From Liolophura sinensis (lineage: Eukaryota; Mollusca; Polyplacophora; Chitonida; Chitonidae), in assembly GCF_032854445.1 (NCBI RefSeq), contig NC_088300.1:7936001-8000000 (forward strand): DNA of 64,000 bases, in the 5' to 3' direction. How positions within the stretch are numbered: position 1 is the first letter of the stretch; each line of letters begins with the position of its first letter. The notes beneath the pieces were generated by a model. That model saw only the letters and a program-made list of their open reading frames with translations. It was not told the origin of the DNA and searched no databases. Made by a program: the position numbers and the translations under genes. Of this stretch, positions 1 to 55,000 are shown piece after piece.

Positions 1-2959
1 TACTCTATGTGTTCTGAGGAGTGCTTAGATGGGTTGGTTGTTGAGCTGTGTAAAATAGGCAGTCAAATACAGATGTACCTTAATACTTAAACCTTTTCAA
101 CTGCCTCTGCAGCTAATATTTTGAAACATTCTTACAGAACTATGGGGCTTAGAGAAATAATTTGCACAGTTTTGTGAAGGTTTCACCTTTAATGACACAA
201 ACAAATCAATCTTGGTGTCATTTTCATAATACCGCACGTAGTGAGGTGAGGCCTGTAGGTATAATGTAAGTTTACTTCACTTACATGTACCTGTCATATT
301 CGTGACACACTGTAAACAAACTTCCGGTTTTCATGATGGCTGCCATTATGAAAGCATGATGTGAAAAGAACCAAAAAGTTTCAACTGCCCCAAACTCTAA
401 AATTTATCTGGGCTGAACACTTTTGATTTTCACTGCCTTATGATGCACAATGAGCATTAATCTTTTGCACAGCGTCTGTGACTTCTAGCCTTAGTTGACG
501 TAAGTACCTGAAGTCTAATATCAGTACTCGACAAAGTTCAGCCTTGAGGTATCCTAGCAATCATACGCAAATCAGCGATCGGCTCATGATGTATGCTAGC
601 TTCAATGGACTTTTCACATGACACACTGATGTTTTTTTTCGAATGGAAAGGGATCTCTCCACACTTGCTAGATACTTGACTCAATCTTTTTTATTCATAA
701 GCATTGCTGGTTTCAATTCTCTTTCTGTACTGGGGTAAAAGCAGCAACACTCACAACATTGATGGTATGTAACTAACTTTTACTACGAAGTGTTTTCAAT
801 AACCTAGCTTATATTTCATTAGCAATTCTGTTTTTTTTTTACTTACATCACATTCAATTTAAAAAAAAAACGCAAACGGAGAAATGCACCACACCCAACA
901 ATAGATCTACAAAAATATTTTTTGTTTTTTCTCTTTTAGCTTCTGTATATAATTGTCTTTAATGTGTATAGTAGATAGTATATAACATGTAGATATTAAT
1001 TTGCCTAATTGATGCACAATGGATATGTAGGCCTACACACTATGTTCGGTCTTAGGCTTTGTTTATTTCATATTAATTGTATGCATAAATTCCACTGAAC
1101 AAAGTTCTTTAGTGGTTGAAAAGGTTGAAGATTTACAGTATGCACATTTTCTGACAAATGCCGCATCGCCGGATTACCCGTAACGTTCTTGAATTAACTA
1201 TTGATCAGTTGTCCGAAGTTAGCTCTGCAATACATAGAGGCAAAATCTTACTCTGAGATAATCTGTTAAAAACAATTCCCGCTCCATGGCTTCAGCTGTC
1301 TCATTTGGCGTTTTCAAGGATCAAATAAAAGTGACGGTTCAGCATTGAACTTTTCAGCTTTCCCACCAAAAACAGACGACGTTTCTTTCACACAGAAGAA
1401 CTCTACGAAGGGAGATAACTATACTGGTACTTCTCACGGCGCATGGGCCGTTTGTGAATGTGTCCTTCAAAGTTCAATATTTTACATGCAGTTTTGGTGC
1501 AAAGTGTATCGTGTAATCAGTTATTGTGCATGTGACGATATGAAGAACTGACGAGCATTGCTGTTAAATATTGGCAGGTTTTTGTGTGATTCGCAGGTCT
1601 GGCCACCGCCAGGGCAGAGGTGACATTGAGTGAGTTGTTGTTGTAACTTATAGCCCAGGCTACTTTTTTCGCTCACAGACCCAAACTGTGAGTGGCAAGT
1701 CAGACTCACCTAGATTATGAACACTGTCAAACCATACACAGGTATTATGTCTGGTAATAACTGCTGAGGAAGGGCAGTTATAAAGACTAGGTTGATCCTT
1801 TCGTTGGTCAGTGAGCCCCTTGTTAGATGTTCATTGTGAAAAGCTAGTTCCAGTTCATCACTCTACCACTTCACAGCAACCTCAAGTTTACAATTCCCAA
1901 AGGAAGTACCAAGTCTACATGACCAAAGTTAAAAAAATATAACATGTCAGTAAGCCAATATTATTTTCCAAGCTTTGTTCGGCAATGGATGGTCCAAACC
2001 AATGTCAAAGCATGCTCCATTTAAAAACCTGATACAGTTGCCATGGCAGTGCAACACCGAGTTTGAGACAAAAAAAATTATCTACAAAATATGTCAGCAC
2101 GGCCTTAACTTAAGTTTGCAAATGCTTATGTAATTCCTTATCTTTTTGTCTGTGGATTTATCATAAGCACAACGTTGATCTGTTATATCCTCGGTCCAAG
2201 ATTCCTTAGTGATGCTCGAAGTGAACGGCTATACTGACAGCCTCGTCATATTTGACAAGGGCAGGTAATTGTATCAGGTTGTTAAATGGACGCTGGTTTG
2301 CCAGTTGTGGTCATCCTTGGCTGAACAAAAAAAAAGCCAAATCTAATGTCGGAGCAATCTCAGACTAAACTTTTTTGTATTCATTTCTGTCAATTTGAAC
2401 TTCTATATTATTACATTAAATACTGAAGCATTACAGTCGTTGTTTCACGTTGACATTTCATGAATACTTTAAATGAAAAGGCAATGAATACTATGACCTA
2501 TGTCCTTAGTTTAAATTTTAGAAGAGGGGTGGAAACAGATCTAGACACCTCAGCCAGATTTTTTCTGGCATGCTTGATAAGTCTTTAAATCACCTGTTAA
2601 TCTGGAATTCTTACCATGGGATACACTATTTCAGGGAAACTGGAAACATGATGTCATATCATGTGTACACTACACACGTACGGCTAATATGAAACAGGTG
2701 TGCTCTCGAGTTGTAGAATAACTTGAGCCTGATTGATTAGAATTGGTAACATGGCAGTGCTTTTGGTCTTCTCTGTAGAACTATGCTAGTTCTGTTTATT
2801 ATAGGTTTACAACATGTCATTTCAGTATAAAATGGTTTGTTTTTTATCTGAGACCTTTATCTTACGTTGCAATCTTGTAATACCTGTTGGACCTGTTTGC
2901 GGACTGGGGCTTCATTTCCTGTATATACATGTAGTTGCTGATTACGTCGCAGACCTGGG
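1..2959. other. no recognised gene (5' flank or 5' intron of the MKKS locus)
   Basis: AT-rich sequence with scattered homopolymer runs and only short, stop-bounded reading frames, most without a usable ATG. No protein family, RNA gene or intact repeat was recognised. Because the first recognisable MKKS-locus exon at 3308 begins right after a splice acceptor, at least one 5' noncoding exon must lie upstream, possibly in here. It could not be placed from sequence alone. Confidence 0.5.
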
Positions 2960-3066
2960 AATGGCCATGGGTTTCCCTCTGGCTCTATCTAGTTTCGTCA
3001 CAGAAAGGCTTTCGTATAAGTGAAAGTTACTGGAGTATGGTGTAAAATACCAGCCAAATAAATTAA
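2960..3066 (+). repeat. SINE 3' fragment
   Basis: Diverged 3' part of the SINE family that recurs across the window. The degenerate 'gtataagtgaaagttactggagtatggtgtaaaataccagccaaataaat' region (read in pieces) matches the tail of the intact copy at 37982-38252. The tRNA-like head is missing, so this is a truncated, old copy. Confidence 0.55.
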
Positions 3067-3307
3067 TAGTTGCAAACTGGGATTTACCTGAAGTTGAAGA
3101 CTCTTAGTACATCAGTACAATTCTTATAGAACCATCACTGATTCTAGTCTTCTCTTTTTCTGAAATTTCTATCTGTGACTTTCAAGTCTTGCCCTAAAAT
3201 TTTTACAGGAGAGTCTGACTTATCATCATGATAATCATGGATGCACAAAATTTAGATCTCATTGCTAAAATTTTCTCTGTAATTAACTTTCTCATTTTTT
3301 GTTACAG

Positions 3308-3547
3308 CTTTCCACCACTCGTTAAGCACTACCATGTCTAAGATCAAGGGATTCCTGAGAAGAAATGTTGTCTGGTTGACATTCATTCCCCTGATAATAG
3401 GCATACACTACACCTGGTACCGTATACAGCTGAATGAAACTCTTGTGCCAAGAGACGTGAAGAAAGCTACAATATTTGGCCATCCTGTTGTACCAGAAAT
3501 TTCTGATGACCAGTCATCTCCAAGTAAAAAGTAGAGCACTTCAAAAG
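3308..3547 (+). other. 5' exon of the MKKS transcript carrying upstream ORF A
   Basis: Bounded by a good acceptor (polypyrimidine then 'ttgttacag', ending 3307) and a donor (AAAAG|GTGACA, exon end 3547). The whole 66-codon ORF A, including its stop, lies inside, so the exon cannot splice ORF A in frame to anything downstream. Its assignment to the MKKS transcript is inferred from order, strand and similarity of layout to vertebrate MKKS. Confidence 0.6.
3334..3534 (+). CDS. upstream ORF A of the MKKS locus: small single-pass membrane peptide (uMKKS-like)
   Basis: A 66-codon ORF starting at ATG with A at -3 (ACC-ATG) and ending TAG. The N-terminus is basic (MSKIKGFLRRN). A hydrophobic stretch of about 16-18 residues follows (roughly residues 12-28, VVWLTFIPLIIGIHYTWY), then a short polar tail ending in lysines. 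That is the form of a small, N-terminally anchored, possibly mitochondrial membrane peptide. In vertebrates the MKKS 5' leader is known to encode conserved small mitochondrial membrane peptides (uMKKS1 and uMKKS2). Here ORF A lies two exons upstream of MKKS on the same strand, and its stop precedes the donor by 13 nt. I infer it is the equivalent of one of those peptides, from position, size and topology rather than an alignment. It may instead be an independent micropeptide gene. Confidence 0.6.
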   Translation: MSKIKGFLRRNVVWLTFIPLIIGIHYTWYRIQLNETLVPRDVKKATIFGHPVVPEISDDQSSPSKK

Positions 3548-3698
3548 GTGACATTTATGATAAACCTTGAAGCTGTTATCCATAAGCATTGTCTTATTCC
3601 CCTTACAAGGACTAGCTTCTGACAGCCCAAGAAATTTGTTTCTAGGTACCATTTATGCATACAATGACATACCTAATTATGGAGATTGGTAGGCAGTG

Positions 3699-3806
3699 TA
3701 CAGTACAGCTCAGGCTAAAAGTCACTTGTTTACCGCTCGTATCAATTTCTGAGATACTGAACTAATCTCCTGCCTGGTTTTGACTTTTAGCCTGAGCTGT
3801 ACTGTA
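3699..3806. repeat. perfect 26-bp inverted repeat with 56-bp loop
   Basis: Positions 3699-3724 are the exact reverse complement of 3781-3806 (core tacagtacagctcaggct). The pairing stops at both outer and inner ends. It lies in the intron 150 bp after the ORF A exon. It could be a small foldback/MITE-type element or an intronic RNA hairpin. No target duplication was identified. Confidence 0.75.
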
Positions 3807-4662
3807 GGTAACCTAGTGAACATTAGGAATTTTACCAGCATCTTTGGGAATCTTTTCTGCAGTACTCCAGTGCTTATATCAACAAATTCGTGAAAGAATG
3901 ATGTTCCACTTAAAAAAAAAGGAGCCCATTTCACAAAGCGCATGTAACGTTACATGCAGCTAACTTCCATAGTGATCAGTATTGTAGGTATTGCGTTGCC
4001 ATGGTAATTACATCATACAAACCAGTCAAATAAGTCATCATTAGTAAAAGATTAAAGGATTAGTGTCCAGATTTACCTACTGGTCCTAATGATAAAGATT
4101 TTAACCTGTTCAAACAGTATGTTACTGGAAAGCTTCTGAAAAATGTATTGATGACTTTAAATCTACCGAAAACAATAGATTTACTGCCCTAACTGATCTG
4201 CAGCCAGCTACCCTTCACAGCAGTGCAGCTCAGTGGATGATGTCACGGATGGCCAACCAAAGTCTAGCTGGCTTAATTAACATGGGAATTCGTGTCAAAA
4301 GGATGTCATTGTCCAGATTGATTCTAGCTGCACAGAAGTAAATATACTGCTGTATCAATTTGAACACATACCTGGTAGTGGAAGATGTTGAAGTGCCAAT
4401 TTATGACACTGACATCTCTGGCCACACTTTAGATTCTGAGTTTTCAAACTTTGAATTTGATTGTTGTCCAGACATTTCAAACTGCATTGGCAATAGACTG
4501 GTAAGCTATAGCTTTGACAACAAATATCATTCTATTCTCCCAGGGATCCTAAATTCATACCTGTATTTGATGACAAAGCAGGTACGTTATTTTTGGCATT
4601 TTGGATGGACTATGCCTGTTGGGCTATGTACGATGTGGACATTGACATTAGTGTACAGAAGT

Positions 4663-4932
4663 TTAGTATCTATCAGTTTTCAGTTCAGTTAATAGTATTT
4701 TATACTTCTGTGTGAAAGTGTTGTTGGCAAATTCAGCTGCATTCCTCTCATAGCTTTCAGCTGTAAAATGACAAAAGCAGATACGGCTGTTTTTGGTGGG
4801 TACAAAATCCTTCCATCTTGTGCTGTAAATCCACGCCTTCCTTAGGTTCAAATAGTCTGGAAACTTGAAAAAACTAACTCCTGGGTTCTTTGGCCTCCAG
4901 TTTTTACAGCTGTATGCAGAACAGAAAACCAT
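4663..4932 (-). pseudogene. THAP zinc-finger domain fragment in an MKKS-locus intron
   Basis: Antisense to MKKS. An 89-codon ORF starting at a true ATG (4932) and ending TAA reads as a single THAP domain. C4 and C9 form the first ligand pair (C-x4-C) and C52 and H55 the second (C-x2-H). Between them are a FFKFP-type core and a KNSRIC segment typical of the family. THAP domains bind DNA through this C2CH finger and occur in host regulators and in P-element-like transposases. Nothing after the domain is recognisable and no good donor follows it, so I read it as a fragment left by a THAP-bearing transposon or retrocopy. A first exon of a gene running leftward is the alternative. Confidence 0.65.
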
Positions 4933-5598
4933 TTCGTGGGGAAATGCAATATGCTTGCTGTCACTCTTGTTTTTTACACTGAACTAAATGGCGAAGCTAT
5001 GACAACTCGTAAAGGTTGGACTTGTATGATGTAATTCAGGGGAGACTTCCAAGTGTTAGCAGAAAAAATGCATGAAACCAGCCTCAATATCTAGTGATTT
5101 TAAGTGCCATATTAGATATGGTTCGAAATGAGAAAACAAGGTTAGTTAATGTTTCAGTTTCTGAAACAGGTTGCGGAGGGGTGGAGGGGCGGGATCCATT
5201 GTGTACAGGTACAGGAGACGGGTGCTACACTGGGTGCTGAGAACTCCTGGAACACCACAGGAACTATTCTTCGTGGTTTCTGCGTACCATGACTGGCTGG
5301 AGAGATGGTGTCCTGTCAAGTGTCTTTGCCATAAACAGAGGTTAAAAATCCCTCAGAGATAGAGCACTTGAAGAGTGGTGGCACTGAAGCCATCCTGGGA
5401 GAGGTACATATAGACCTCGTTGTAAAGCTGTGACTATCAAGCTCAAGGCCGACCAATAAGAATCCTGGAAAGGTCAACTCATATATGAGTTATTTTTGTC
5501 TATCCTGTTAATATTGCATAAATATTGCCAATGTGATGTTGACGGTTAATCGTTCCTTAATTCCAATCCTGGTGATGTCATGTTTGATGTATTTTCAG

Positions 5599-5840
5599 AT
5601 TGAGACATTCACAGTTCAGCTGCAGCCAGTAAGATGATTCGGGAAGGGATATTAAATGCAACCCTTTGGGCATTAAGGAATAAGTTTGCTTCCATAAGTT
5701 TGGTTGTTGCTGTCACCTACATTGCATCATTTCCATATTTTGCTCAGGCAGAGATTTCAACGTCTGAAAGTCGAGCTAATTTCAGGAGAGAGAAAGAGGA
5801 GAAAGCAGCCAAACAAACACCTCAAGGATGAGACAAAAAG
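5599..5840 (+). other. 5' exon of the MKKS transcript carrying upstream ORF B
   Basis: Acceptor 'gatgtattttcag' ends at 5598. Donor AAAAG|GTACAG follows 5840. The complete 65-codon ORF B is internal, with 35 nt before its ATG and 9 nt after its stop. Together with the exon at 3308-3547 it would give a leader of two small ORFs directly upstream of the MKKS start exon. Confidence 0.6.
5634..5831 (+). CDS. upstream ORF B of the MKKS locus: small single-pass membrane peptide (uMKKS-like)
   Basis: A 65-codon ORF from ATG (context AAG-ATG, A at -3) to TGA. It has an N-terminal segment with few charges, a hydrophobic core near residues 19-37 (FASISLVVAVTYIASFPYF), and a strongly charged C-terminal tail (RREKEEK) ending in PQG. 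The pattern is a small tail-out or mitochondrial inner-membrane-type peptide, comparable to ORF A though not similar in sequence. In the spliced order ORF A - ORF B - MKKS, its stop is only 15 nt before the MKKS ATG. Such a gap is very short for ordinary reinitiation. Identity with a vertebrate uMKKS peptide is inferred from genomic position and was not aligned. An overlapping longer frame at 5704-6057 runs into a SINE and is dismissed. Confidence 0.6.
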   Translation: MIREGILNATLWALRNKFASISLVVAVTYIASFPYFAQAEISTSESRANFRREKEEKAAKQTPQG

Positions 5841-5914
5841 GTACAGTACATTGATTGGACCTGGAGACACATACAATAAGCATTACATGCTCAGTTATTT
5901 TTTAGTCCTAAAGG

Positions 5915-6110
5915 ATGTCATTGCGGTCTCTGTGAGTTTAAGTCCAGCTCATGCTGGCTTCCTCTCTGGCCGTGCGCTGGGAGGTCTTGCAGCAACCTGT
6001 GGACGGTTGTGGTTTTCCGCCGGGCTGTGCTCAGTTTCCATAATACTGGTCAGTTAGTGAAATATTCTTGAGTACAGCGTAAAACATCATTCAAGTAAAT
6101 AAATAAATAA
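5915..6110 (+). repeat. SINE, 5'-truncated, + orientation
   Basis: Matches the body and tail of the window's SINE family: 'gtgagtttaagtccagctcatg' (B-box region), the cytosine-rich middle, and 'aaatattcttgagtacagcg' with an 'aaataaataaata' tail. It lacks the first tRNA-like part. It sits in the intron between the ORF B exon and the MKKS start exon. Confidence 0.75.
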
Positions 6111-6349
6111 TGAACAGCCAAAATAAAGCAAACAAATAAACATTCTGACAGATCAATACTTTGTCATCAGATTTTGTGTCTAGACATGGTGTCATATGTA
6201 TAAAAGCCACATTTTATCATGGTGTGAACCTTTGATTGAGTTTATTATTCAAATTTGAAAAGTGTGTTATTTGGATGACAACAGACTTGTTGGTGTGGTT
6301 CTTCATTAAGTGATTGCTCTGTGTGTTTTTTTCCCTCCCCCAGGAAGAC

Positions 6350-9300
6350 ATGTCAGTGGATAAAGTCAGGGTGGATGTTAAGAAGGAGGCTGAGTTTCAG
6401 CGTGACTTCATAGACTCTCCTGACCTCCAGGCCTGTATCAGAGTTCTCCGAGATATCGTCAAGTCTTCATATGGCCCTCAAGGTCGTCTGAAGTCAGTAC
6501 AGAATTGCTGTGGAGGTCATCTGACAGTGACATCCTCATCGCGCAGGCTTTTTGGAGCTCTGTCTGTTTCCAGGCCCGTCCTTCAGCTGGTTGTCGGATC
6601 AGTTCAAGGTCATATGAGGGCGTTTGGTGATGGGGGGTTGTTTGCTGCGCTCCTCTCTCTCAATCTGATTGAAAATTCATTCTGCCTTTCTGTCCAGCGA
6701 CATGTTACTGTGGACCTGTTTGATTGTTTCCTTACGCTAGCCGTCGACTATTTGAAATCCCCAGATTGTAGGTGTAAGCAAGCTCTGAATTACCCCAACT
6801 TGGATTTTCTGCTAAAACTGACACACAGTGTGGTAGGGTCAAAACCGCTGTGCAATTTATACGGCCTCAAACTTGACTACATTAGCAGAATTTTAGTGGA
6901 AGCTTTTCTTCAGTCCCTCCCTGAATCAAAAGTGCACCGCTGTCGACCAGAAACTATTCATTTCTTGACAGAGACTGGGTATTCTGTCACTGAGTCTAAA
7001 GTATTTGCAGGAGTCCTGCTTGATACTTGTGGAAGGGATATTTCCATTGTGCAGAATTTGAACTGTCAAAGTGTTTGGTCTGATAGTCATCGTACAGTAC
7101 CTGTTGTTGTTGTAAACATTTCGCTTTCTGGTGACCTCGAAGACTTTGTTGAAGCAGACTGCTATGAAGTGAACTGTGATATAAATGTGGACAATGTAGC
7201 TATACAGAGGTTACAGTGTTTTGCTGAGGCACTACTCAGCAGTGGCACAAAAGCTGTGTTCTGCCAAAAAGTTGTGCATCCAGACATCAAGATATATTTG
7301 AAAAGACGGGGCATCCTTGTGATTGACAGATTAGGTGGAGCTGTGTGTAAAACCATTCAGCAGTTGACAGGTATGTTTACAACAACAATAATATTGAACT
7401 GTATGTGGTTTAAAGTTAGTGCTATTTCAGACCTAATAGAAGCTAGGCGGAAATTGTTGTGTATGAGCTGTCACAGAGCCGAGAGAAACTAGGTCACATG
7501 ACGTGAGCAACTTAACAGAGATATTAGAAAGATATGAAGGATACCTAGGGAACAGAGTTAACACCACGGTTCAAACAAATTTATGACGAATGACGAATAT
7601 AACTATTGAACACCTGTAAGTATAGAAGTCTTAAAGACAAAATTTTTGCAGTTTCTGTAACATTTTCCTGATGTGATGTGATAATATTTCATATGTAAGG
7701 ATGAATCAGGTAGATGACAGGTGACATTAAGTTAGGCAAATATGCTGGAATGATGTCACATGTCCTATGTGGCAAGGGATGATGATAAGTGTTCTTGTAT
7801 GATGTCACACCAGGCAAAATTGGAAATGACAGAAGACTTTTGTTTCTGTACTACAAGTATCCTCCAAAACTTACGACAGCGGTTTTACTACTTAGTAATT
7901 TTTTTTCCAATTTAGGAAAGCAATTCAGACTACCGGTGTCTTGATCTTTACCATTTAACCCTTCTTTCAAGATATACAGGCCTTCAGACTGGAGTAGCTG
8001 TTTAAAGAAGCTACATTATGTATGTACAATGAACATTTATGCTGTTCTTCAGAAACTAAGCAGCCTTTCACAATTTTGTTATGTGCTTTGTTACTTTTTT
8101 ACAAATGCATGTATAGCATTTGGAGATGAATCTATGTAAATAGGATTGGTCAACTTTAGAGATTGTTTCAGAGAGAGAATTATTTTCGCCAGTGTTGGTC
8201 TCTCAAACATACATGGACATGTGTGTATGGAGATTGCATAATCATGAATTTTCACGTGATTAGGTATGTCTCAGTCGCTAGACACTACTGCATCGTTATC
8301 CTTTATTCTAGATATAATTTTGGGAAGTACATTTACTTTCCACTTTACCAGATCCTGATTATCAATATCCTGTTCCATTTATTTCAAGGAGCCCCAGTTG
8401 TCAGTTGTATTTCTCCATCTGTGGTTCGAAACTGTGTGGGTTCTCTAGCTAGTATTACAGTGGAAGTTTTTCATGGCAAGAGTTACCTCCTCCTGACCTC
8501 ACTCTTTTCCAAGGATGTGAGTGTTGTTTTGTGTAACAGTGGAGAAGAGAGGGTGGAGGAACTAAAGGTGGGTCAGTGTGACCGTGGCATAAATTTGAAA
8601 TAGCTGATTTACTTTTAGTAGTTTTTCATTCTGTAATGTAAATTATTTGATGTTGTAGAGATTACATTGCTCTCCAGGTCATTGCTCTCTATATTATGAA
8701 TACTGTCCTTCCACTGACCAAATACTAGAAACTCATTATAAGTGTAATGTTCGTATGTAGTTTATAAGTGGATATATTTCGGCTGTTTCTTATCTTTCCT
8801 TATCTGTTAAGTACAGGTTTAATGGGCTGTATAAAATTCACTAGTGTCAGTTTTAGAACTACCAGTTCCACCTTTCGCTATGTGAAGAGCAGTGCATTGA
8901 TGGCTTTCTGTTAAACTGACGTATGCTCTTGTATTTTTCTGGCGGCAGGTGGTGAGTGAAGCCGCCGTGCAGTGTCTGTATCGTCATCTCCAGCAGCCTG
9001 AGGTGTTGTCAGGGGGAGGGTGCTGGCAAACACACCTGAGCGGACACATTCGTCAACAGGTACTACTCCTCCCAACAACATGACTTAATAGTTTAGTACA
9101 TCTAACAATTTTTGCTATTTGCTGTTACATGTATGTTAAAGCAAGAACTGTGAAGATCGTACGTGAGCCACATACATCATTAATAATTAAAAGGTATAAT
9201 CTATTTATATATGCTTGTTGAAAGATGAATATCAGCCAGTTTTCATTTGTGTCTCATACAGGGTTAAGTTCATTTTAATATCTGGGAATGCTTTAATGTA

Positions 9301-10342
9301 TGATGGTACACATAAGGAGGCTTTGAACGATTTAGAGATTGTTCTTCAGTTTATGTCATACTTTTGATTTTGATTCTGAGCCATTAAAAGGAGCAGGATA
9401 TAACTCATTGAAAAGGTGCGTGACTCAAAACTGCTGGTATATTGGGTGTGAAATCAGTCCTAGCCAAGGGCAGGGAATTTCTGACGCTGTCATTGCATGT
9501 GTTGCTCTGGTGACAAAAGAAGTATGTGATGCCTGTGGGGCTGTTTGTATTCCACATGTTGTGCTGTTGTGTATTTATTTGGTGTTTTATGCCATTCTAA
9601 AGAATATTTCACTTATGTGATGGTGACAAGCATTGTGGAGCATAGAACCTGGCCCCAGCCCATGGGAAACCCACAACCATTCACAGGTTTGCAGTTGTGT
9701 ACATATATGTCAAATTTGTCAATATCTTGCAAAAGATTGGTGGCTTACCATGAGCACTTGAGTTTTCTATACCCATCACACTGTCTGCCATAGTATAAGA
9801 AAAAAGCATTAAACAACAATCAAGTGAATAAAGTAAACCAAGTGTAACGATGGTAAGATGTTGTTTTATCATCTTTTCAGGTGGAAAACAAAGTAGTGAT
9901 CCTGACGAGAAAATTTCATGTTACCAAGTCGACACTGTTGACTGTTTCAGAGGCTTTTTGTCAAAGCCTGGAACAGTGTGCTATGGCTCTGAGTAAGGAT
10001 GGAGAGTGTCACATGACTGATACAGCCAATCAGCATTTGTGGGTGGCCCCAAGTGCATGTTGGGACAGCAAAAAGGAAAACAAACTTTTTAGGAAATGTT
10101 CCTGTGGAGAATTCTCCCGAGGGGAGACAACTAAGCTGATAGCTCTTACCAGTGTTTCTGGTCAACCACATACAGGAACATATCTTCCTGTGAATAACAA
10201 GACAAGTGTTACAAAGACAGACTTGTTGACTGGAGCCACGGTGATAGATAGCTTTCCAGTACAATTAAATGCCCTTAAGACAGCTGTGCTAACAGCCAGT
10301 GCGGTGTTAGGCATAAACCAGTATGTCAGAGATACAAATTAA
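6350..10342 (+). CDS. MKKS: MKKS / BBS6 chaperonin-like protein (four coding exons)
   Basis: Coding exons 6350-7370, 8389-8567, 8949-9059 and 9881-10342. Phases join as 1, 0 and 0, giving 591 codons (590 aa; human MKKS is about 570 aa). The protein is a group II chaperonin-related fold that, with BBS10, BBS12 and CCT, assembles the BBSome for ciliary trafficking. Diagnostic stretches include SSYGPQGRLK (about residues 39-48), GDGGLFAALLSLNLIEN (93 on), CQKVVHP...DRLGG in the apical part, LSGGGCWQTHL in exon 3, and SEAFCQSLEQC with the terminal ALKTAVLTASAVLGINQYV in exon 4, all in the order of the family. The start is fixed by the ATG 6 nt after acceptor 'cccccag' (6343). The nucleotide-site segment reads GDGG, closer to canonical GDGTT of active chaperonins than the degenerate vertebrate form. 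No clear AATAAA was seen after the stop. Confidence 0.93.
9570..9700 (-). repeat. SINE fragment in the last MKKS intron, - orientation
   Basis: Reverse-oriented copy. 'ggtgttttatgccattctaaagaatatttcactta' is the complement of the family tail and is followed by diverged 'ggaaacccacaacca'. A further degraded tail-like stretch follows to about 9830. Its partial frames explain the spurious reading frames between MKKS exons 3 and 4. Confidence 0.6.
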
Positions 10343-10859
10343 GACTGCAGATATCTGGTCCACTGAATGTAATGGTCCAGAATGTAATTCAGTGAAAATA
10401 CAAGTGTTTTGACTAGATCACTATACAACATCAGGGGTCAGTGTAGATCATGGAGTGTAAGATGGGAATTAATTGTAAACACAGATCAGACGAGGCATGA
10501 TGTGAAATTCTTTAGAATCTGATCTACAGTTATAAATGTGAGTTTAATCTGCCTGATTATCCTGTGTCTGTCTCAGAATATATTATTTCAAAAGAATACA
10601 TGCTTATTATCCAAATCAGTTTAATGTTATTTCTTTTAGTCTTGTTAAAAACAAAAGAGAAAATATGAATCATAAAATCTGCATGCAGAAGAATTTATAG
10701 TTCCTTCCTATAGGTGAAAAATTTGCTTTAAAATTCAAATTGAAAAAAATGTTGTGAAGAGGTTTCTTCTGTTATTGTATACATGTATACAAATTGTGGA
10801 AGTTTTCTTTGTGAAAACAGTTATTATTAAGTATTTGCAAATCTTTTTTTAACTATCCA

Positions 10860-10944
10860 ATGCAACTTTGCACATAGATTCCATCAATGGGTGAGACATT
10901 GTGTCTGGTTTTCCAGTGAAGTGGTGTTGTAGATATGTCGGTAT
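10860..10944 (+). repeat. isolated diverged unit of the 108-bp minisatellite
   Basis: 'cattgtgtctggttttccagtgaag' and 'gatatgtcggtattgga' match the 'ctttgtctggtgtccagtgaag ... gatgtcagcattgga' part of the 108-bp unit of the array that starts at about 11181. It is separated from that array by a dispersed repeat. Confidence 0.6.
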
Positions 10945-11180
10945 TGGAGTGAGTTAGTGAGTGCTTAGGGTTTAACGTACTTAACAGTTTTTCAGTCATA
11001 TGACCATGAAGGAGTTTTTTAGAGTGCATGTCGTAGTGTGCCACGATGTTGCAGGACAGATTTCCACCGCTCTTATCTAGTGCTGCTTCACTGAGGCGAC
11101 TTACCTAAGACGAGTTAGTTGCCCCTCCCTTACACTGATACGGGTCAACCACTGCACTATCCCCTTGATTCTGAACGGCA
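10945..11180 (+). mobile_element. unclassified dispersed repeat inserted in the minisatellite
   Basis: Contains 'gagtgcttagggtttaacgt', 'cagtcatatgaccatgaagg', 'ctagtgctgcttcactgagg' and 'tgatacgggtcaaccactgc'. I recognise this pattern as a non-coding repeat type that is frequent in molluscan genomes; the recognition is from memory, not a search. Minisatellite units flank it on both sides, so it most simply inserted into, or was captured by, the array. No ORF, terminal repeats or target duplication could be defined. Confidence 0.5.
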
Positions 11181-12649
11181 AGTGAGTATCTGTGCACTGT
11201 GAGCGGGTGGGGCACTTTGTCTGGTTTCCAGTGAAGCAGTGCTATAGAGATGTCAGCATTGGAACTGAGATACACCAAGTACTGGTGAGCCCAGTATCTG
11301 TGCACTGTGACTGGGCGGAACACTTTGTCTGGTGTCCAGTGAAGCAGTGCTATGGAGACTTCAGCATTGGAACTGAGATACACCATGTACTGGTGAGCCC
11401 AATATCTGTGCACTGTGACTGGGCGGGACACTTTGTCTGGTGTCCAGTGAAGCAGTGCTATAGAGATGTCAGCATCAGAACTGAGATACACCAGGTACTG
11501 GTGAGCCCAGTATCTGTGCACTGTGACTGGGCGGGACACTTTGTCTGGTGTCCAGTGAAGCAGTGCTATGGAGATGTCAGCACAGGAATTGAGACACACC
11601 ATGTACTGGTGAGCCCAGTATCTGTGCACTCTGACTGGGTGGGACACTTTGCCTGGTGTCCAGTGAAGCAGTGCTATGGAGATGTCAGCATCACAACTGA
11701 GATACACCATGTACTGGTGAGCCCAGTATCTGTGCACTGTGACTGGGCGGGACACTTTGTCTGGTGTCCAGTGAAGCAGTGCTATGGAGATGTCAGCATT
11801 GGTACTGAGATACACCAAGTAGTGATGAGCCCAATATCTGTGCACTGTGTGTGGGTGGCACACTTTGTCTGGCTTCCAGTGATGCAGTGCTATGGAGACT
11901 TCAGCATTGGAACTGAGATACACCAAGTACTGGTGAGCCCAGTATTTGTGCACTGTGATTGGATGGGACACTTTGTCTGGTGTCCAGTGAAGCCGTGCTA
12001 TAGAGATGTCAGCATTGAAACTGAGATACACCGTGTACTGGTGAGCCCAATATCTGTGCACTCTGACCGAGTGGGACACTTTGTCTGGTGTCCGATGAAA
12101 CAGGGCTATAGACATGTCAGCATTGGTACTGAGATACACCAAGTGCTGATGAGCCCAGTATCTGTGCACTCTGACCGAGTGGGACACTTTGTCTGGTGTC
12201 CAGTGAAGCCGTGCTATAGAGATGTCAGCATTGAAACTGAGATATGCCATGTACTGGTGAGCCCAGTATCTGTGCACGGTGACTGGGTGGGACACTTTGT
12301 CTGGTGTCCAGTGAAGCAGTGCTATAGAGATGTCAGCATTGGAACTGAGATACACCATGTACTGGTGAGCCCAATATCTGTGCACTCTGACCGAGTGGGA
12401 CACTTTGTCTGGTGTCGGATGAAACAGTGCTATAGACATGTCAGCATTGGTACTGAGATACACCAAGTGCTGATGAGCCCAGTATCTGTGCACTCTGACC
12501 GAGTGGGACACTTTGTCTGGTGTCCAGTGAAGCAGTGCTATAGAGATGTCAGCATTGAAACTGAGATACACCATGTACTGGTGAGCCCAGTATCTGTGCA
12601 CGGTGACTGGGTGGGACACTTTGTCTGGTGTCCAGTGAAGCAGTGCTAT
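11181..12649. repeat. 108-bp minisatellite, about 13.6 copies, with a 324-bp higher-order unit
   Basis: Tandem 108-bp units carrying 'gagcccagtatctgtgcac', 'ggacactttgtctggtgtcc' and 'actgagatacaccatgtact'. Because 108 is a multiple of three and the unit lacks stops in one frame on each strand, both strands stay open for over 500 codons. A three-unit block (324 bp) starting at 12059 is repeated at 12383 with few changes, which shows recent higher-order amplification at the right end. It lies downstream of the MKKS stop. Confidence 0.95.
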
Positions 12650-12715
12650 AAAAAATATTATTATAGTTGGAGACAGAGTCATATAAACCCTCCGATCAGA
12701 TTTTTTCCTTTATAG

Positions 12716-13575
12716 GCACTTAAAGATCAGGGGAAACAAGTCCTAAAATATCGCACACAGAACATTCCTCTTAAGTCACCTCTTCCTCGATATATGAAAG
12801 CCCCAGTGGGACTAGATGATGGTTCAAAACCTCACCAGTACACGAAAAAAGATTTTCACCAACAGTATTCAGAGATTCTGAACACTCCGATGAATGAAAT
12901 CGGAAGCAGATTCAGCAGGGAGGAATACAACTTAACCCTCAGTATCGAGAAGCTACTGATAGATTCAGCAGGGAGGAGTACAACTTATCCCTCAATACCG
13001 AGAAGCTGCTGATAGATTCAGCAGGGAGGAGTACAACTTAACCCTCAATATCGAGAAGCTGCTGACAGATTCAGCAGGGAGGAATACAACTTAACCCTCA
13101 ATATCGAGAAGCTGCTGATAGATTCAGCAAACAGTGATTGTGCAGCTGAAATAACCAAATCTGTTGTTGACATCTACGGGAAAGACACAGGCTTTGACCG
13201 TCGTAAAACACAGGGGAAAATACTTTCAGATTTCGTCAGATCGGTCCAAAGTGCCTCTAATGTCACAACTGTGAAAAACGTTAGAACTCTAGTCCACCTA
13301 AAACTGCGTAGATTGGTCAGCTAAGTGAAGTCGACAAACTTCTTCAGATATACTTCACTATACCCGTGTCAACTGCGTCTGCAGAGCGCACATTGTCTGT
13401 GCTGCGATAGCTGAGAAATTACATGAGCACAGGCAATATCTGCCGAAAGACTGCATTTTTCTTCTTCTACATGTTGCATCTTCAGCACAAAACAGACAAC
13501 CTAATCAGCCACGATACGAAAGTCATTTATCACGAGAGACGATTGGGTTACTTCGTATCATTTCTCTCCGAGTAA
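12716..13575 (+). pseudogene. decayed hAT-family transposase (dimerisation region)
   Basis: In pieces this reads as the middle and C-terminal part of a hAT transposase of the ZMYM-like type. LDDGSKPHQYTKKDFHQQY and NEIGSRFSREEYN lead into IEKLLIDSA. The hATC dimerisation block VDKLLQIYFTIPVSTASAER then TLSVLR begins near 13328, and HERRLGYFVSF ends it near 13565. Breaks include an in-frame TAG after TLSVLR, a stop at 13322-13324 between halves, and a 53-bp tandem expansion that throws the frame. A possible acceptor (tttatag) precedes 12716. It is a dead transposon remnant with no terminal inverted repeats identified. Confidence 0.75.
12909..13120 (+). repeat. 53-bp tandem repeat, four copies, inside the hAT remnant
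   Basis: Units begin 'gattcagcagggagga' at 12909, 12962, 13015 and 13068, with a partial fifth start at 13121. The unit is the coding segment RFSREEYNL...EKLLID, duplicated. Each unit shifts frame by two, and the second copy already reaches a stop. Three extra units total 159 nt, so frame is regained after the array, but only through stops. Confidence 0.92.
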
Positions 13576-16164: not shown

Positions 16165-24252
<8,088 letters not shown>

Positions 24253-42055: not shown

Positions 42056-42428
42056 ATAAATAAGTGTATACATAAATCAGTAAATCGATTTCACTGATGT
42101 CCTGTGATCTTTGTCCTGCAAAATGTTTTCCAGTTCATCAGAGCAAGGTCCCCTATATGAAAGGTAGTACTCTAATTTATCTCCGTGATGCAGATGGCTG
42201 TCGTGAGTTTCTCCCGAGGCAAATCCATTGTTAACCACGTGAGTTCTGCCGAGGATCATATCCTCAAAACTAAACATGTCCACGTGACCTGTTTTTCTCA
42301 CATTACATTTGTAAACTGCGAACAATTCTTCTCGAGGAGCAGTAATTCCATAAACTGTTCATCACTTATGATTGCTTTCTACAGGGTGCTGTCATCTGCA
42401 AGAGCTCAACAACAACACCTCGCGAAAG

Positions 42429-45400
42429 ATGTACCTAAAAGTGGACGCCGCGTTTGGCCGTGCTTTTGCCTGGTATGGCGAGAAAGTGGGACGATATCCT
42501 TGGGTGTTCATCTTGGGTTGTATTCTTGTCAATGGCCTCCTGGGGATAGGCTTGCTCCGGCTGACGGTTTCCAATGACATGCAGAGGCTCTACACACCAG
42601 AAAACAGTCGTTCTACCCAGGACAAAAAAGTAATAGAGGAACTATTTGTCGACCGCAGTGGTGACGCTTACTTCGGTTACCAGAAAACGAACGATGGGAG
42701 ATTTGCGGATTTGTACGTCAAGTCAAAGGACGGTGCCAATGTGTTGTCGGATGCAGTTTATTATGATCTGATAGAGCTCAATTCTCATATCACTAACATG
42801 ACGGTGACGGACCCTGCAACTGACAAGATCTACACGTACGAGGATGTGTGTGCGAGGCGGTTTGGGGAATGTGTCGTTGATGGTTGGCCCTTCCTCTCTC
42901 CCGTCTTCCGTGCTGCTTACAATGCTGGTAATGTTACATATCCCTTCTTCCTGTCTCCGGCACTGGGGCCAATTAATCTAAAGCGACTGCTTGCTGGAGT
43001 GAGAAACAGTTCTAAGTATGGTATCGAAGCGGAATACTTGAAACTAAAGTATCCATTCCGTCATGACACTGTGAAGTTAGCCAATATGTCGAGCCAGTTT
43101 GAACTCGCCTATCTGGAGTTGATGAGTAATATTAGCACAAACTTCGACAACGTGGAACTGGCTTACGCCATGTCGGTGTCTCTTGACAAGGAGCTAGACG
43201 CCAACACGGACGGGGACGTGAGAATGTTCTCCTTTACCTTTGCTCTTATGATAACGTATGCGTCTTTCGTGTCCTCTGGCGGTAACTGTGTGTCCTCAAG
43301 GGCTCACTTAGCCAGGGCCGGGGTTCTAGCTGTACTAATGGCCATCCTTGGAGCCTTCGGGCTTGTCAGCGCATGCGGAGTGCCATTCACCAACATTGTT
43401 GGCATCATGCCCTTTCTCATCCTTGGTAAGTCTCATTTTGGTGTCACTATATATGCTATCTCTCATTCTGGGTGGACAATATCTTGTTGTTATATTATTT
43501 CTGAATATGACTTAATGTATTTAAAGCATCTTAAAGCAGGCTATATTCTAAGCCTGTGGTGTCTTGAAGGGGTCAACCCCTTTACCGAATAACGTCCATC
43601 TTGCTATTTATATGCCGTTTAATTTTCTTTTATAATGACGTAGTGTTTGGTCTTGAATTTTTTAATATTTTCATTTTGTATTACATTTCAACTTGACCCC
43701 TAGATTTTATCTGTATTAAGAACTGTGTTGTTCCACGGTGATTTTATGTCCTAGCTAAACTGTTCTCTTTGTGTACACACCAAATCAGTTTTCAAAGTCA
43801 GGATACAACAAAAGTGAGACAGTTGGCACGAAACGATCGGTTTCCACTTTACTCCCTCTGATATAAGATACGTAACACACTTTGGGAAACCTTTGTTTCA
43901 CAACGCCAAGAATTATTATTAAGTGAATTTTCACCACTATGTGGTATATCACATATTTCAAACGTTCAGAGTATTACGGAGTTTTTGACAGCTTTGTGAA
44001 ATGTTTATACATAAATGTATTGTCGATAATGTAACAAATGTTGTGTGAACAATCGAACTACAAATCTCATCTTCACAATACCGGCTGTTATATCTGCAAA
44101 GAATCTAGATTGGCAGTTCATGGAAATACCGGTTGGATTTCATGTAACGTCTCCTCCTTTTGTCATGACTATGCCACTTGTCGTTCCCAGCTATACAGTG
44201 GAATGTCAGTTGTCTTCCTTAGGTGTTGGGATATGAATATATTCATATTTGCTTCTGTTTTTTTTTTTACCAGGTTAGCGGCACACGGAACTATCACGGT
44301 ATCAAAATACATAACTCCACACCTTTTCTCTTTAAGGTATTGGTATTGATGACACATTTGTGATGATGGCGGGTTGGCTAAACAGCGAGTATGACGAGGA
44401 CATTCCCCGGAGGTTGGGGGCTACCCTTAGAACCAGCGGCATGGCCATCACTCTCACCTCTCTCACTGACTTCGTGGCCATGGTTGTCGGCATCATTAGT
44501 GTCTTCCCCAGCATCAGGATGTTCTGTGTGTACACAGGTAAGAATCTTTTCCCATGAAATGATTGCTTGCAAGAAACTTTTCTTTCTTTTCTCCGTTTCC
44601 GTTTTCTTGGATCAAGATCTCGTGCAAATAAAAAGATCCCAAACAGGTGGTCAGACACATAAAAATTAATAAACCACTAATCAACCTCTGTCTCAACGCT
44701 GTCTTTGACGGAACCGACTTTTAACATCGATGAGGAATTTTTTTATAGGACTTCATGGATTGTATTCATGAGAACAACTAATTGCAAATGTGCCATTTTC
44801 TATGAATAAAAATGAACTTTGTTTGATACGTTTGCAGGCGTAGCCGTCCTGTTGTGCTACCTCAACCACGTGACCTTTTTCGCCGGATGTATTGCTCTTC
44901 ACGGGAAGCGAGAGAAGGCGAATCGGCATTGTCTTACCTGTTTGACCGTGCCACAGTTCGACAAGATGAGAGAAAGTGGAGCGTCGGGTTGCAAAGTGTG
45001 CTTGTGTGCTGGCGCTCCGGCCAAAACAAGGGAGGCTAGCGAGTCAATATGTGAAAGGGGACCGCGTTCTGTGCTGCCCAAATTCATCCTTCTGAGGCCC
45101 GTTAAAGCTTTCATTGTCTTGGTATTTATGGGTTACCTCGGGGTGTCTATCTGGGGCGTGTACAACCTCCAACAGAAACTACTGCTAGAAAACTTGGTGA
45201 GCCCCACCTCCCACTACCTTAACTACAGTCAGTGGATGAACCAGCATTATGAGTCCAGGTTTTTGGTGGGTTTGTACGTGACAGACGAAGTGGATTACCG
45301 ACAGAAGAGTACACAAGAGGAGTTATCTAGGGTGGTTCACGCCATCAGGAAGGACGACAGCTTCAACGACATCTTCTACTTGTCATGGTTGGAGGAATAC

Positions 45401-46417
45401 AAGAGATCACCGTTTTACGATGACTCCTCTGAAAAAGCCTTCATCTCGAGTTTGAGAGACAACTTTCTTCTCTATGTTCCTAGATTCATAAATGACATCG
45501 TATTCAACCCAGATAAATCAAAAATTATCGCTTCACGCACCTACGTCCAGACGGAAAATGTGAAGCACAACTTAGAACAAGGGAGAAGCATGTTGTGGGC
45601 CAGGGAGAAGGCAGACTCAGCCAGCTTCAATATCATCGCCTACGTGCCATGGTATATATATTTCGAGCAATACGTGGCGGTGCTGCCCAACACACTTTTA
45701 ACTGTAGGTGTCGCCGTCGCCTCCATGTTTGTGATTTCCGTTATCTTCATGCCCCATCCCCTAGTGGTGATCTACATAACTCTGGCCATTTCCTCCATTT
45801 TGGCGGGTGTGATAGGCTTCATGCACTGGTGGGGCTTAACCCTCAGTTCCATTACGATGATCCATCTGGTGATGTCCGTGGGCTTCTCCGTGGATTACTG
45901 CGCTCACATTTGTCATGCGTACATGCAAGCGGAAGCGGCAGGACGACACGCGCGCGTGGCCACCGCACTGGGCCGGATGGGAGGCCCCATCCTGAACGGT
46001 GCCGTGTCCTCGGTGCTGGGCATCCTTATGTTGGCTGGATCTCAATCCTACATCTTCAGCTCCTTTTTCAGGATAATGATTTTGGTTCACTGTTTCGGTT
46101 TCCTTCACGCGCTTTTCTTCCTGCCGGTCCTGCTCTCCTGCATTGGGCCTATGCCGACTGGTCGAGGTGTCAATATAGACAAGATTCGTGTGGTGCCACC
46201 TCTGCCTGAGAAGAACAAGAATAAAGGCTTTAATCGTCCTCCTCCTGATGATGGCATGCCACAACTCACGGCCAGTAAAGGTTTGGACGACAATTTTACG
46301 CGTATGAAAGCTGACACCCCTGCTAGTAGTGATGCCCCAGTTAATGGAGGATTGTCAGTTAATGGAAGAACTGCAGTCAATGGTGGAACCTCATCTGAGC
46401 CCAGTGGGTCTCATTAG
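42429..46417 (+). CDS. Patched-domain (PTCHD3/PTR-like) 12-TM protein, three coding exons
   Basis: Exons 42429-43425, 44337-44537 and 44838-46417 join in phases 1 and 1 to 926 codons (925 aa). The fold is Patched/Dispatched/NPC1 (RND) with a sterol-sensing domain. TM1 is about residues 25-44 (YPWVFILGCILVNGLLGIGL) and a large extracellular loop follows. The SSD runs from about 262 and ends in FLILGIGIDDTFVMMAGW (about 328-345), with the paired intramembrane acidic residues of the family. A second loop follows a Cys-rich cytosolic insert (about 425-470). The second TM bundle holds VGFSVDYCAHICHAYM (about 746-761). The C-terminal tail is polar, with VNGG-type repeats. These proteins move or sense sterols or lipids; the substrate is unknown. 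An acceptor at 42384 implies a 5' noncoding exon. The ATG at 42429 fits the family's N-terminus. A PTCHD or ptr ortholog call would need phylogeny. Confidence 0.92.
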
Positions 46418-52000: not shown

Positions 52001-55000
52001 ATCTAAAGAAGTTGTTCAAAATGAGAGTTGAAAAGAAGCAGATTTAGTTTATATTTAATATACTGTTACCCAATCATTTTTGGGCGAAGTACAAATTTGA
52101 AGACTTAATATAAAGTTAAACCTGGTATTAAGTCCTTGAACAGTTTTGAACAACAGGGCACAGGTTAGGGAGTCCCCCAATACATTTAACTCATCTTTTT
52201 GTCATCCCCGTTTGTGAAAATAATTAGTGCAATATTATCATGTGTTAATACAGCATATACGTTCATTCCAGAACAACGCATGTCTTCCAAACATTGCCTA
52301 GCCGGAAATAAATCTTTATGTAGCAAAATTTCTCAAGCCTAGAGTGTGTCACAGTAAGGGAAAATACATAACAGAAACAAGAGAAAGAGTTTCAACAGAA
52401 AATGTGAACTCGAAATCAAAGCTTACCTTAACAGATCAAAAAAATCTTTATATTGCTGTGGTCGTTAGTCACGCTATTTGGGGATGATAATGTTAGAGCT
52501 ACAGCTACGTGTGAACATTCAGCTCTGTTGATTTTTATGTTACTTAGTGGCCACCGTACATAATCAAGAGTGCGCATGCTAATGGCAGCTATTACGTCAC
52601 GGGATTCTCCCTTGATCTGCTGGAGGAAGTCAGACAGCTGCTAAACTTCACGTAAGTTCACAGTCAACGGTCGTCTCTGCATATGAATGAGGCGTCCCAG
52701 CTGATAAAATTCCGCAAATTATTTTGTTAATGCCAAACAATGAACCCAATTTAATTAGAACATTACGGATAATATTGAGATAACATCATAGCCTTTAAAT
52801 TATGGACAAATTATCACTTTACTGCTAATTTCTAAACCAGGATATTTGTGACAGGTATGTTCTGGAATATGAGCATGATGGTTGGGGACAAACTTGTGAA
52901 GACGGAAACTGGTCTGGCATGGTGGGGCTTCTTCAGAGACGGGTAAGAGCTAGTTAATATCAGTTGGCCAAGTAATGTGCGTCAGAAGTGTAATGGTCAC
53001 TGTTCTCACAGTTCGTGTTGCCATGGTGATAATAAGTGGCCAACGACGTTCGTGTTGCTTTGGTGACAATAAGTGGGTGACGACACACGTGTTCTGCAGT
53101 CTATCGTATAAGATCACTTGCCTTGTTTGGCCGATTGGTGTTTTACACCGTACTCCAGAATATTTCACTGGCGACGGCCAGCATTATGGTGGGAGGAAAC
53201 CGGGTAGAGCCCGGGGAAAACCTACGACCATCCCCAGGATGTTTCCCATGTGCGACTGGAGAGGAAACCAGCATGAGCTGAATTTGAACTCACAGCGATG
53301 CATTGCTAAGGCTTCTGGGTTTTTGCGCCTCGCTCCCACCATTTTAGTGTACAACCACCATTGTAGTGGTGCCAGGTGGTATTTTGAAAAGGAAAAAAAC
53401 ACACATTTACAGGAAACGTCCATTTTTTTTTTGAAAGATGAAGAACTCGCTGTTCAACCCAATTGTAATAAACTATGACCTCTATTTCGTTACTATATTT
53501 ACAGGAGAAAGACTTAATCATTGGGGCTTTAGGTCACCAGCCTGAACGTACCGCCGTCATGGACTTCAGTCTGATCTATGACGAGATCTCGATCACCATG
53601 TGGATACTGGATCCGCGTCAAAGACCCCGGATATGGCTGGCCTTGTTCGACATGCTGGACTTAGCAGTGACGGGACTTCTATTGGGCACCATATGCCTGT
53701 TATCTGTCATCCTTACCCTCTCCTCTATGACTGTGCCTATCGGACATCAACCGGAGTCCCTGACAAGTTGCTTTGTTACCAAAGTGTTCACACTGCTGGG
53801 AGCGATTCTTGCGCAAGGTAAAGCTTATACCGAACAGCTATGGCAGAGAATAAATATATAGTTACCAGTCAGGAGAACTGGGTGCAATGAGTGTGAGTAT
53901 AGATGACGGACTCGTGACCATGACAGGCCATGACAAAAGAATTCCGTAGTTCAGAGCAAGTCATGTCCCAGGAGAGACGATGAAATTCTTTTGTTAGAGA
54001 ACCAACATGGCCGCCATTCAGCGTAGTAACACCAGCTTTTGCCATTTTGTCGCCCTTTCAAACTTTGCACGCCAAATATGGCTTTGTGTGCAACAATAAC
54101 GTGAGAGCTGATTGATTATCGCGTAGCCCGTACTACGGTCAGAGTCAAAAACACATGAATAGTGTTCACAAATACGTTAAATTGATGATAAGTGAATATG
54201 AAAGAAAATTATCTCATTACCATGTGTAGAAAGCCATGGATTAGGCGAGATGTTTTCTTCCCTAGTTTTTTGGTATGCTGGTATTACACACACATTATAC
54301 ACACTTCAATTCAGATCGAATTACAATACAATACAGCAAAAATCTCATCAATAACTTCAACATCACAACCTCTAACAGATTCTTAAAGATTCTAATATAA
54401 TTGTTAAAAATATTAGCTATATGGACATAAAATTCGTCAGCTATTTGCAGTCCTGGCGGGAATTTACTTGGGAAACATCCTTTGCATCAGTCACTGGCAA
54501 TGCTTATATTATTGTATTTGCTAAAGCACGACAAGCTTCAGAATCTAAATTCTGCACTATCCTTGTCCGAAAGATCTTTTCTCATTTAACAAAAGCTTTC
54601 TTCCCTTTCAGGATCTCGAGTTCAACAAGCGACTTCAACAGGAAAAACGATTATAGCTACCTGGTGGATGTTTTCTGTGGTGTTCTCCATCACTTATAGT
54701 GCCATGTTGATTGCCTCCCTCAGTGCCAACACCACGCAGCTTCCGTTTGATAGTGTGGCATCCATGATAAAGCAGACGGAATACTCTTATGGTATTTTTG
54801 GATCTGGAACTGAACAAATGTATTTCAAGGTAATACCATATAAATAACAATTTTAGAAATAATAACAATAAAATAGTTCTCAAAATGTTAACAAAAATAA
54901 CAAATCTACTTTCGTTTTATTCAGGTGAATGAACTTTGGTAGTATTATTTTGGCAAGTTATATTTTAATCTTGGAACGTTAGGATGTCTACACAATTTGT

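Follow-up and report, generated by a model that had tools for sequence, protein, structure and literature searches.

We hold with moderate confidence that the leader of the MKKS gene of the chiton Liolophura sinensis encodes two small membrane peptides, most probably an invertebrate version of the vertebrate uMKKS1/uMKKS2 pair. The two open reading frames (ORFs), here called ORF A and ORF B, lie in two predicted leader exons upstream of the MKKS start exon. If A and B share their origin with uMKKS1 and uMKKS2, this gene would have carried a leader for two mitochondrial peptides ever since the lineages of vertebrates and this chiton parted, the peptides would likely have functions of their own and be more than brakes on MKKS, and distant sequences would be at hand for finding conserved residues. 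MKKS is a ciliary chaperonin gene, and a lasting linkage of the leader would, if true, join it to mitochondrial peptides; lasting polycistronic genes are considered rare in animals. The features of the locus within the analysed stretch of 64,000 nt (the window) are listed in Table 1.

Table 1. Features of the MKKS locus and its predicted leader (positions in the window).
Feature	Position	Strand	Evidence
Exon A (predicted, MKKS 5′ leader)	3308-3547	+	AG/GT boundaries
ORF A, 66 codons plus TAG	3334-3534	+	basic N-terminus, hydrophobic segment at residues 12-28, polar tail
Exon B (predicted, MKKS 5′ leader)	5599-5840	+	AG/GT boundaries, weaker splice sites
ORF B, 65 codons plus TGA	5634-5831	+	hydrophobic segment at residues 18-34, charged tail
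SINE-like dispersed repeat in intron 2	5925-6140	+	matches elsewhere in the same genome
MKKS coding exon 1, ATG at 6350	6344-7370	+	PF00118, E 5.5e-29
MKKS coding exon 2	8389-8567	+	boundaries, translation, alignment with human MKKS
MKKS coding exon 3	8949-9059	+	boundaries, translation, alignment with human MKKS
MKKS coding exon 4 with stop	9881-10342	+	boundaries, translation, alignment with human MKKS

The coding region downstream of the leader comprises four exons and 590 codons, and its identity as MKKS, which had been proposed from a sequence-only reading of the window, is well supported by sequence comparison. The chaperonin domain PF00118 was recovered with 101.6 bits against a cutoff of 34.3, and an alignment with a human MKKS sequence entered by hand gave E 2e-80 over almost the entire protein, with identity at 173 of 586 aligned positions (30%). 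The protein is group II chaperonin-like, with thermosome, CCT or other chaperonin chains making up the best 60 of 68 PDB matches; the first exon matched thermosome at 5e-8 and CCT theta at about 1e-5, and a placement nearer to MKKS than to CCT subunits, BBS10 or BBS12 is presumed from these pairwise matches. In PMC2846930, MKKS is described by a diverged ATP-hydrolysis motif in which the Asp is kept and by a retained Gly-Pro dipeptide. The gene analysed here agrees with this rule, having FGDGG in place of the canonical chaperonin GDGT, together with SSYGPQG. The human MKKS row of a table in the same paper ('4, 4 ... 570,570') appears to mean four coding exons. The four coding exons and 590 aa found here fit the MKKS expectation of four exons and about 570 aa. 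Human splice points, which we take to lie after c.985, c.1161 and c.1272, would be compatible with the phases 1, 0 and 0 and with the aligned positions of the chiton gene; a literature search for one of these points returned nothing.

The coordinates and AG/GT boundaries of the two upstream exons were confirmed, as was the earlier observation that each holds one complete ORF with A at position -3; the corresponding base of the MKKS ATG is G. In the spliced model, 48 nt separate the stop of ORF A from the ATG of ORF B and 15 nt separate the stop of ORF B from the MKKS ATG, exactly as had been read before, and the distance from the ORF A stop to the MKKS ATG is 261 nt (48 + 198 + 15). ORF A, ORF B and MKKS share one reading frame, with a single TGA followed by five codons and the ATG between ORF B and MKKS; this common frame was not used as evidence, because its chance is 1 in 9. 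The frame of ORF A is free of stops from the 5′ edge of exon A (3308) to the ATG, as part of an open frame at 3283-3534, so peptide A could be extended by an exon further upstream that keeps this frame open. Splice sites were scored on the plus strand of the window with generic matrices entered by hand. Among 3658 AG sites the 3′ site of exon A falls in the top 0.27%, and among 4099 GT sites its 5′ site falls in the top 2%, whereas the sites of exon B rank lower (3′ top 6.7%, 5′ top 6.3%). No 3′ splice site on the strand scores higher than that of the MKKS start exon; this site stands only 6 nt ahead of the ATG, so that an upstream exon is needed.

Both peptides have the hydrophobic segment that had been ascribed to them, with a best 17-residue mean hydropathy of 1.59 for peptide A and 1.79 for peptide B and a net positive charge ahead of the segment of +4 and +2, respectively. 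Single-sequence AlphaFold2 predicted one helix for peptide A (residues 3-37, mean pLDDT 68) and two for peptide B (2-31 and 33-60, mean pLDDT 80); folds this simple, of one or two helices, resemble many unrelated chains in fold comparison. Each of the queries ORF A, ORF B and MKKS exon 1 had one match in its own genome. No relative of the two peptides came to light: A and B had no Pfam family at E up to 10, their best PDB matches (E 0.85 and 0.9) were no better than chance, and a 17-residue fragment of human uMKKS1, the one piece of the human peptides compared, matched no better than shuffles (p 0.52 against A, p 0.82 against B), a null result that is weak because the fragment is so short. Scans of viral contigs with peptide A, peptide B or MKKS exon 1 as query also gave no relative, and Rfam gave no match in window positions 1-12000. 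A genome contig with a 45% match to peptide A over residues 18-55 was rejected as a chance hit in bacterial DNA; the contig had no match to B or MKKS better than E 0.14, and the match to A falls in the end of what we take, by eye, to be an oxononanoate-synthase-like enzyme.

The human MKKS leader with uMKKS1 and uMKKS2 was reportedly described by Akimoto et al. in 2013. According to the literature, the human uMKKS0, uMKKS1 and uMKKS2 have 43, 63 and 50 aa (PMC9985340), the 63-aa ORF occupies 192 contiguous genomic bases (on chr10 as printed; PMC9776223), one transcript has small ORFs at positions 182-326 and 391-541 (PMC5896265), repression by the MKKS uORF is partly sequence-dependent (PMC7530721), and both peptides were found in mitochondrial membrane fractions, with short uORF-only MKKS transcripts also occurring in human (PMC12573267). 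The chiton locus is alike in having two small ORFs of similar size in the same order, separated by a short gap, upstream of the same chaperonin gene and on its strand, in the membrane character of the peptides (here predicted from composition) and, going by the passage on the 63-aa ORF, in an ORF contained in one contiguous genomic block; uORF-only transcripts as reported in human are conceivable here too. It is unlike the human leader in the second ORF (65 codons against 50), in the single frame of all its ORFs, where the human pair apparently differs according to the coordinates in PMC5896265, and in uMKKS0, for which no counterpart was identified; for the 15-nt gap to MKKS, the corresponding human value was not found in the literature. 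The earlier proposal that the arrangement predates vertebrates is partly supported by position and layout, with agreement in ORF number, order, rough size and membrane character; the arrangement may be very old, and the vertebrate pair may share its descent. Among the titles listed in the literature searches, none dealt with MKKS uORFs of an invertebrate, and the single MKKS passage of a paper on uORFs names MKKS as a known case. Small mitochondrial proteins are also encoded in the leaders of MIEF1 and SLC35A4 (PMC7066179 and PMC10908861); common to these and the chiton locus is a mitochondrial peptide, putative here, encoded ahead of a main protein to which it is unrelated, while they are other genes with a single such peptide described.

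It is very unlikely, in our estimate, that ORFs A and B are open by chance, within an ordinary intron or an untranslated part of the leader. Taken by itself, ORF length is unremarkable, because 40 of 1,526 ATG ORFs on both strands of 51.4 kb of the window, left after masking of stretches taken as coding, reach 65 or more codons; so is hydropathy, the value of A being reached by 20 and that of B by 14 of 92 control ORFs, and the layout rule satisfied by A and by B is also satisfied by 7 of the 92 (50-100 codons). Against a chance origin stands a scan for exon-bounded ORFs of at least 60 codons with a purine at -3, in which 400,000 nt of strand from the same genome gave 5 hits, none with the layout of A and B and none with a neighbour within 3 kb. 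Upstream of MKKS, 6,343 nt hold 2 such exon-like ORFs where 0.08 are expected (P ~0.003, with thresholds and layout rule set after A and B had been seen), and window positions 12800-64000 gave one hit per strand; under these post hoc thresholds the pair exceeds chance. The weak splice sites of exon B and the codon usage of ORF B, which looks uncoded, would suit a chance origin. With training on MKKS and on two stretches judged by eye to be exons, the score of ORF B was equalled by 12 of 29 controls of at least 50 codons, or by 25 of 29 when synonymous choice only was counted, and its own frame scored below two other readings of the same stretch; the score of ORF A was equalled by 0 of 29, 3 of 54 and 20 of 115 controls of at least 50, 40 and 30 codons, respectively. 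Codon usage is uninformative, or speaks against ORF B, and the test has little power because MKKS itself, when left out, scored only -0.07, between A and B (0.10 and 0.17 for the other two training genes).

Were A and B one or two separate small genes with transcripts of their own, outside the MKKS leader, the four AATAAA motifs in intron 2 could end such transcripts before MKKS, and the link from B to MKKS is a prediction; we nevertheless find this quite improbable, as both exons have a usable 5′ splice site at their end and the start exon, with its top-ranking acceptor, calls for an upstream partner. Convergence, in which A and B are genuine coding exons of the MKKS transcript but have an origin separate from that of the vertebrate uORFs, is conceivable because leaders readily give rise to short peptides of basic and hydrophobic character; we rate it as unlikely. 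It would agree with the missing similarity to the one human fragment tested, with the lack of a family match and with the different frames in which the human ORFs would lie going by the transcript positions in PMC5896265, but that fragment makes for a weak null, and equal number, order and position with similar size at an apparent orthologue would be a notable coincidence. An extremely doubtful variant, conceivable because of the common frame and the single TGA, is that read-through of this TGA or a splice removing it joins the B peptide to the chaperonin, which would give a membrane-anchored, possibly mitochondrial MKKS and make the leader part of a regulated bifunctional gene.

If the leader encodes a counterpart of the uMKKS1/uMKKS2 pair, as we prefer, exons A and B would be spliced to MKKS, ribosomes would translate both ORFs, the peptides would go to a mitochondrial membrane and the ORFs would keep MKKS translation low. 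Reinitiation 15 nt after a 65-codon ORF is disfavoured, so that the earlier argument for other supply routes holds, its list lacking only late reinitiation after ORF A. The MKKS start may be reached by leaky scanning past both uORF starts; alternatively, ribosomes may finish A, recover late, bypass B and initiate at MKKS, 261 nt past the A stop. In delayed reinitiation of the ATF4/GCN4 type, a first ORF is followed by an inhibitory ORF and by a main start at a distance suited to late-recovering ribosomes. The order of A, B and an MKKS start at a usable distance is alike, whereas efficient reinitiation calls for a short first ORF, a length that ORF A, with 66 codons, greatly exceeds. Transcripts ending in intron 2 would encode only the two peptides and should not be subject to nonsense-mediated decay; the AATAAA cluster (6098, 6102, 6122 and 6135), in and just after the SINE-like tail, is a candidate poly(A) site for such uORF-only transcripts.

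In the 20 kb upstream, SLX4IP, presumably the divergent neighbour of human MKKS, was sought by comparing 7 of 26 frames of at least 80 aa with Pfam, none of which scored above a family cutoff. The CpG ratio is raised at 1101-1550, yet also at several places further upstream, and no first exon was assigned. For the repeat within intron 2, a search of 23 sequences of the same genome with the stretch 5925-6097 gave 50 matching pieces, one of which is the stretch itself.

Two small open reading frames, ORF A and ORF B, were found upstream of the chaperonin gene MKKS (BBS6), each in a separate exon-like block. The ORF lengths, block boundaries, A at position -3 and gaps reported in the sequence-only reading were all correct. 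With the blocks joined as predicted, 48 nt separate ORF A from ORF B and 15 nt separate ORF B from MKKS, and position -3 is A at the ATGs of both small ORFs and G at the MKKS ATG. By these coordinates, exon A continues for 13 nt past the stop of its ORF and exon B for 9 nt. Two features are added here: in the spliced model A, B and MKKS share one frame, for which the chance probability is 1 in 9, and only one TGA separates B from MKKS; and the frame of ORF A is open as far as the 5′ edge of exon A, so that its 66 aa may be a minimum.

Features of the MKKS locus and its leader (window coordinates)
Feature	Position	Strand	Remarks
ORF A	3334-3534	+	66 codons, complete, inside single AG/GT block 3308-3547
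ORF B	5634-5831	+	65 codons, complete, inside single AG/GT block 5599-5840
SINE-like repeat in intron 2	~5925-6097		copy listed as 5925-6140; 50 related pieces, itself included
MKKS start exon	6344-7370	+	ATG 6350; PF00118 match
MKKS coding exon 2	8389-8567	+	coding model
MKKS coding exon 3	8949-9059	+	coding model
MKKS coding exon 4	9881-10342	+	coding model

The four-exon MKKS model comprises 590 codons with intron phases of 1, 0 and 0. PF00118 matched the first exon with an E value of 5.5e-29, and the entire protein was 30% identical to human MKKS (E 2e-80), for which a table row in PMC2846930, available without its column headings, apparently gives four exons and 570 aa. The first MKKS exon, A and B each had at least one match in the 609-Mb assembly, in the window (match counts are lower bounds). 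Splice sites were scored with generic matrices. The 3′ and 5′ sites of exon A ranked in the top 0.27% of AG and top 2% of GT sites, those of exon B in the top 6.7% and 6.3%, and MKKS's own at 0.03%-2.4% (four 3′ sites) and 0.2%-8.5% (three 5′ sites), the 3′ site of B being weaker than each of the four.

ORF length by itself is common, as 40 of 1,526 ATG ORFs in the window outside masked stretches reach 65 codons. The stretch upstream of MKKS (6,343 nt, + strand) was compared with both strands of 20 regions of 10 kb on its contig, 400,000 nt in all, in a scan for spans of 200-320 nt holding an ORF of at least 60 codons with a purine at -3, bounded by splice sites at least equal to the weaker of A's and B's. 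Only A and B were recovered upstream of MKKS, against 0.08 spans expected, giving P(≥2) ~0.003, which is optimistic because the thresholds and layout rule were chosen after A and B were seen. The control yielded five spans, none with the layout of A and B and no two within 3 kb on one strand; at least one resembles a true coding exon by eye. From 12800 to 64000 of the window, one span per strand was found. Judged by these counts, exon-bounded ORFs are rare, unlike long ORFs. Among 92 control ORFs of 50-100 codons, 7 satisfied the layout rule, and 20 and 14 reached the hydropathy alone of A and B, respectively.

Codon usage lends B no support: it was matched or beaten by 12 of 29 control ORFs of at least 50 codons (synonymous choice, 25/29), and B's own frame scores lower than two other readings of its stretch. 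For A, none of the 29 reached its codon usage and two its synonymous choice; among shorter controls, 3/54 and 20/115 reached its usage. Scores per codon were -0.03 for A, -0.07 for left-out MKKS, -0.13 for B, and 0.10 and 0.17 for the two other training genes. Neither Pfam families nor solved structures (PDB) resembling A or B were found, scans of viral and genome contig collections gave no relatives, and alignment of both peptides to the human uMKKS1 fragment NDDIPEQDSLGLSNLQK, taken from an excerpt of PMC8448870, the one paper found to print it, was not above shuffles. The sole match in the contig collections, a bacterial gene (L004, query A), was rejected as a relative.

According to the excerpts available of the papers cited, human uMKKS0, uMKKS1 and uMKKS2 have 43, 63 and 50 aa (PMC9985340). 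The 63-aa ORF occupies 192 contiguous genomic bases (PMC9776223, whose table prints chr10), which suggests that it lies in one exon. On one human transcript, small ORFs are located at 182-326 and 391-541 (PMC5896265), implying a gap of ~62-65 nt and different frames if the 48-aa first ORF is a shortened uMKKS1. The same kind of excerpts report the peptides in mitochondrial membrane fractions (PMC12573267; mitochondrial location also in PMC7066179 and PMC10908861), uORF-only transcripts arising by alternative polyadenylation (PMC12573267) and relief of repression upon frame-shifting of the MKKS uORF (PMC7530721). The earlier interpretation, that the arrangement predates vertebrates and survives in a lophotrochozoan, is supported in part, and the predicted A/B leader is probably the invertebrate counterpart of an arrangement known from vertebrates.

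Coordinates apart, the mechanism proposed for the MKKS leader draws on what is established about how ribosomes scan and reinitiate and how transcripts decay. Scanning ribosomes would reach A first and then B, each with A at -3, and reinitiation at MKKS only 15 nt past B would be unlikely. The MKKS start may be gained through leaky scanning; alternatively, ribosomes recovering late after A would skip B and initiate at MKKS, 261 nt (48 + 198 + 15) past A's stop in the spliced model, a route that the length of A should make inefficient, so that low MKKS output would be expected from this transcript. As the MKKS junctions lie downstream of both small-ORF stops, transcripts translating only A or B would be prone to decay; a transcript ending within intron 2, between exon B and the MKKS start exon, would have no junction past B's stop. 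As a further addition to the sequence-only reading, the SINE-like tail in this intron is a candidate poly(A) site: four AATAAA signals lie at 6098-6140, against a window average of 0.94 per kb.

The 50 pieces related to this repeat, itself included, came from 23 searched sequences. Further copies of the dispersed SINE-like repeat lie at 2935-3066, upstream of exon A, and in reverse at ~9567-9692 in the last MKKS intron. Downstream of MKKS, a tandem array of a 108-nt unit (11077-12720; copies ~90-95% alike) contains two open frames, one on each strand, of 534 and 509 codons, as expected from a unit length that is a multiple of three. In L006, a stretch upstream of MKKS, a 352-aa open frame at 8348-9406 on the opposite strand (-), ~17 kb from the MKKS ATG, had no match in a Pfam search and could be a divergent neighbour gene. 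By eye, large open frames at 42372-43592 and 44816-46417 resemble a patched-domain membrane protein, two similar frames at 19281-19703 (-) and 53472-53861 (+) an ionotropic glutamate receptor channel segment, and frames at ~56962-61927 (-) an LTR retroelement polyprotein.
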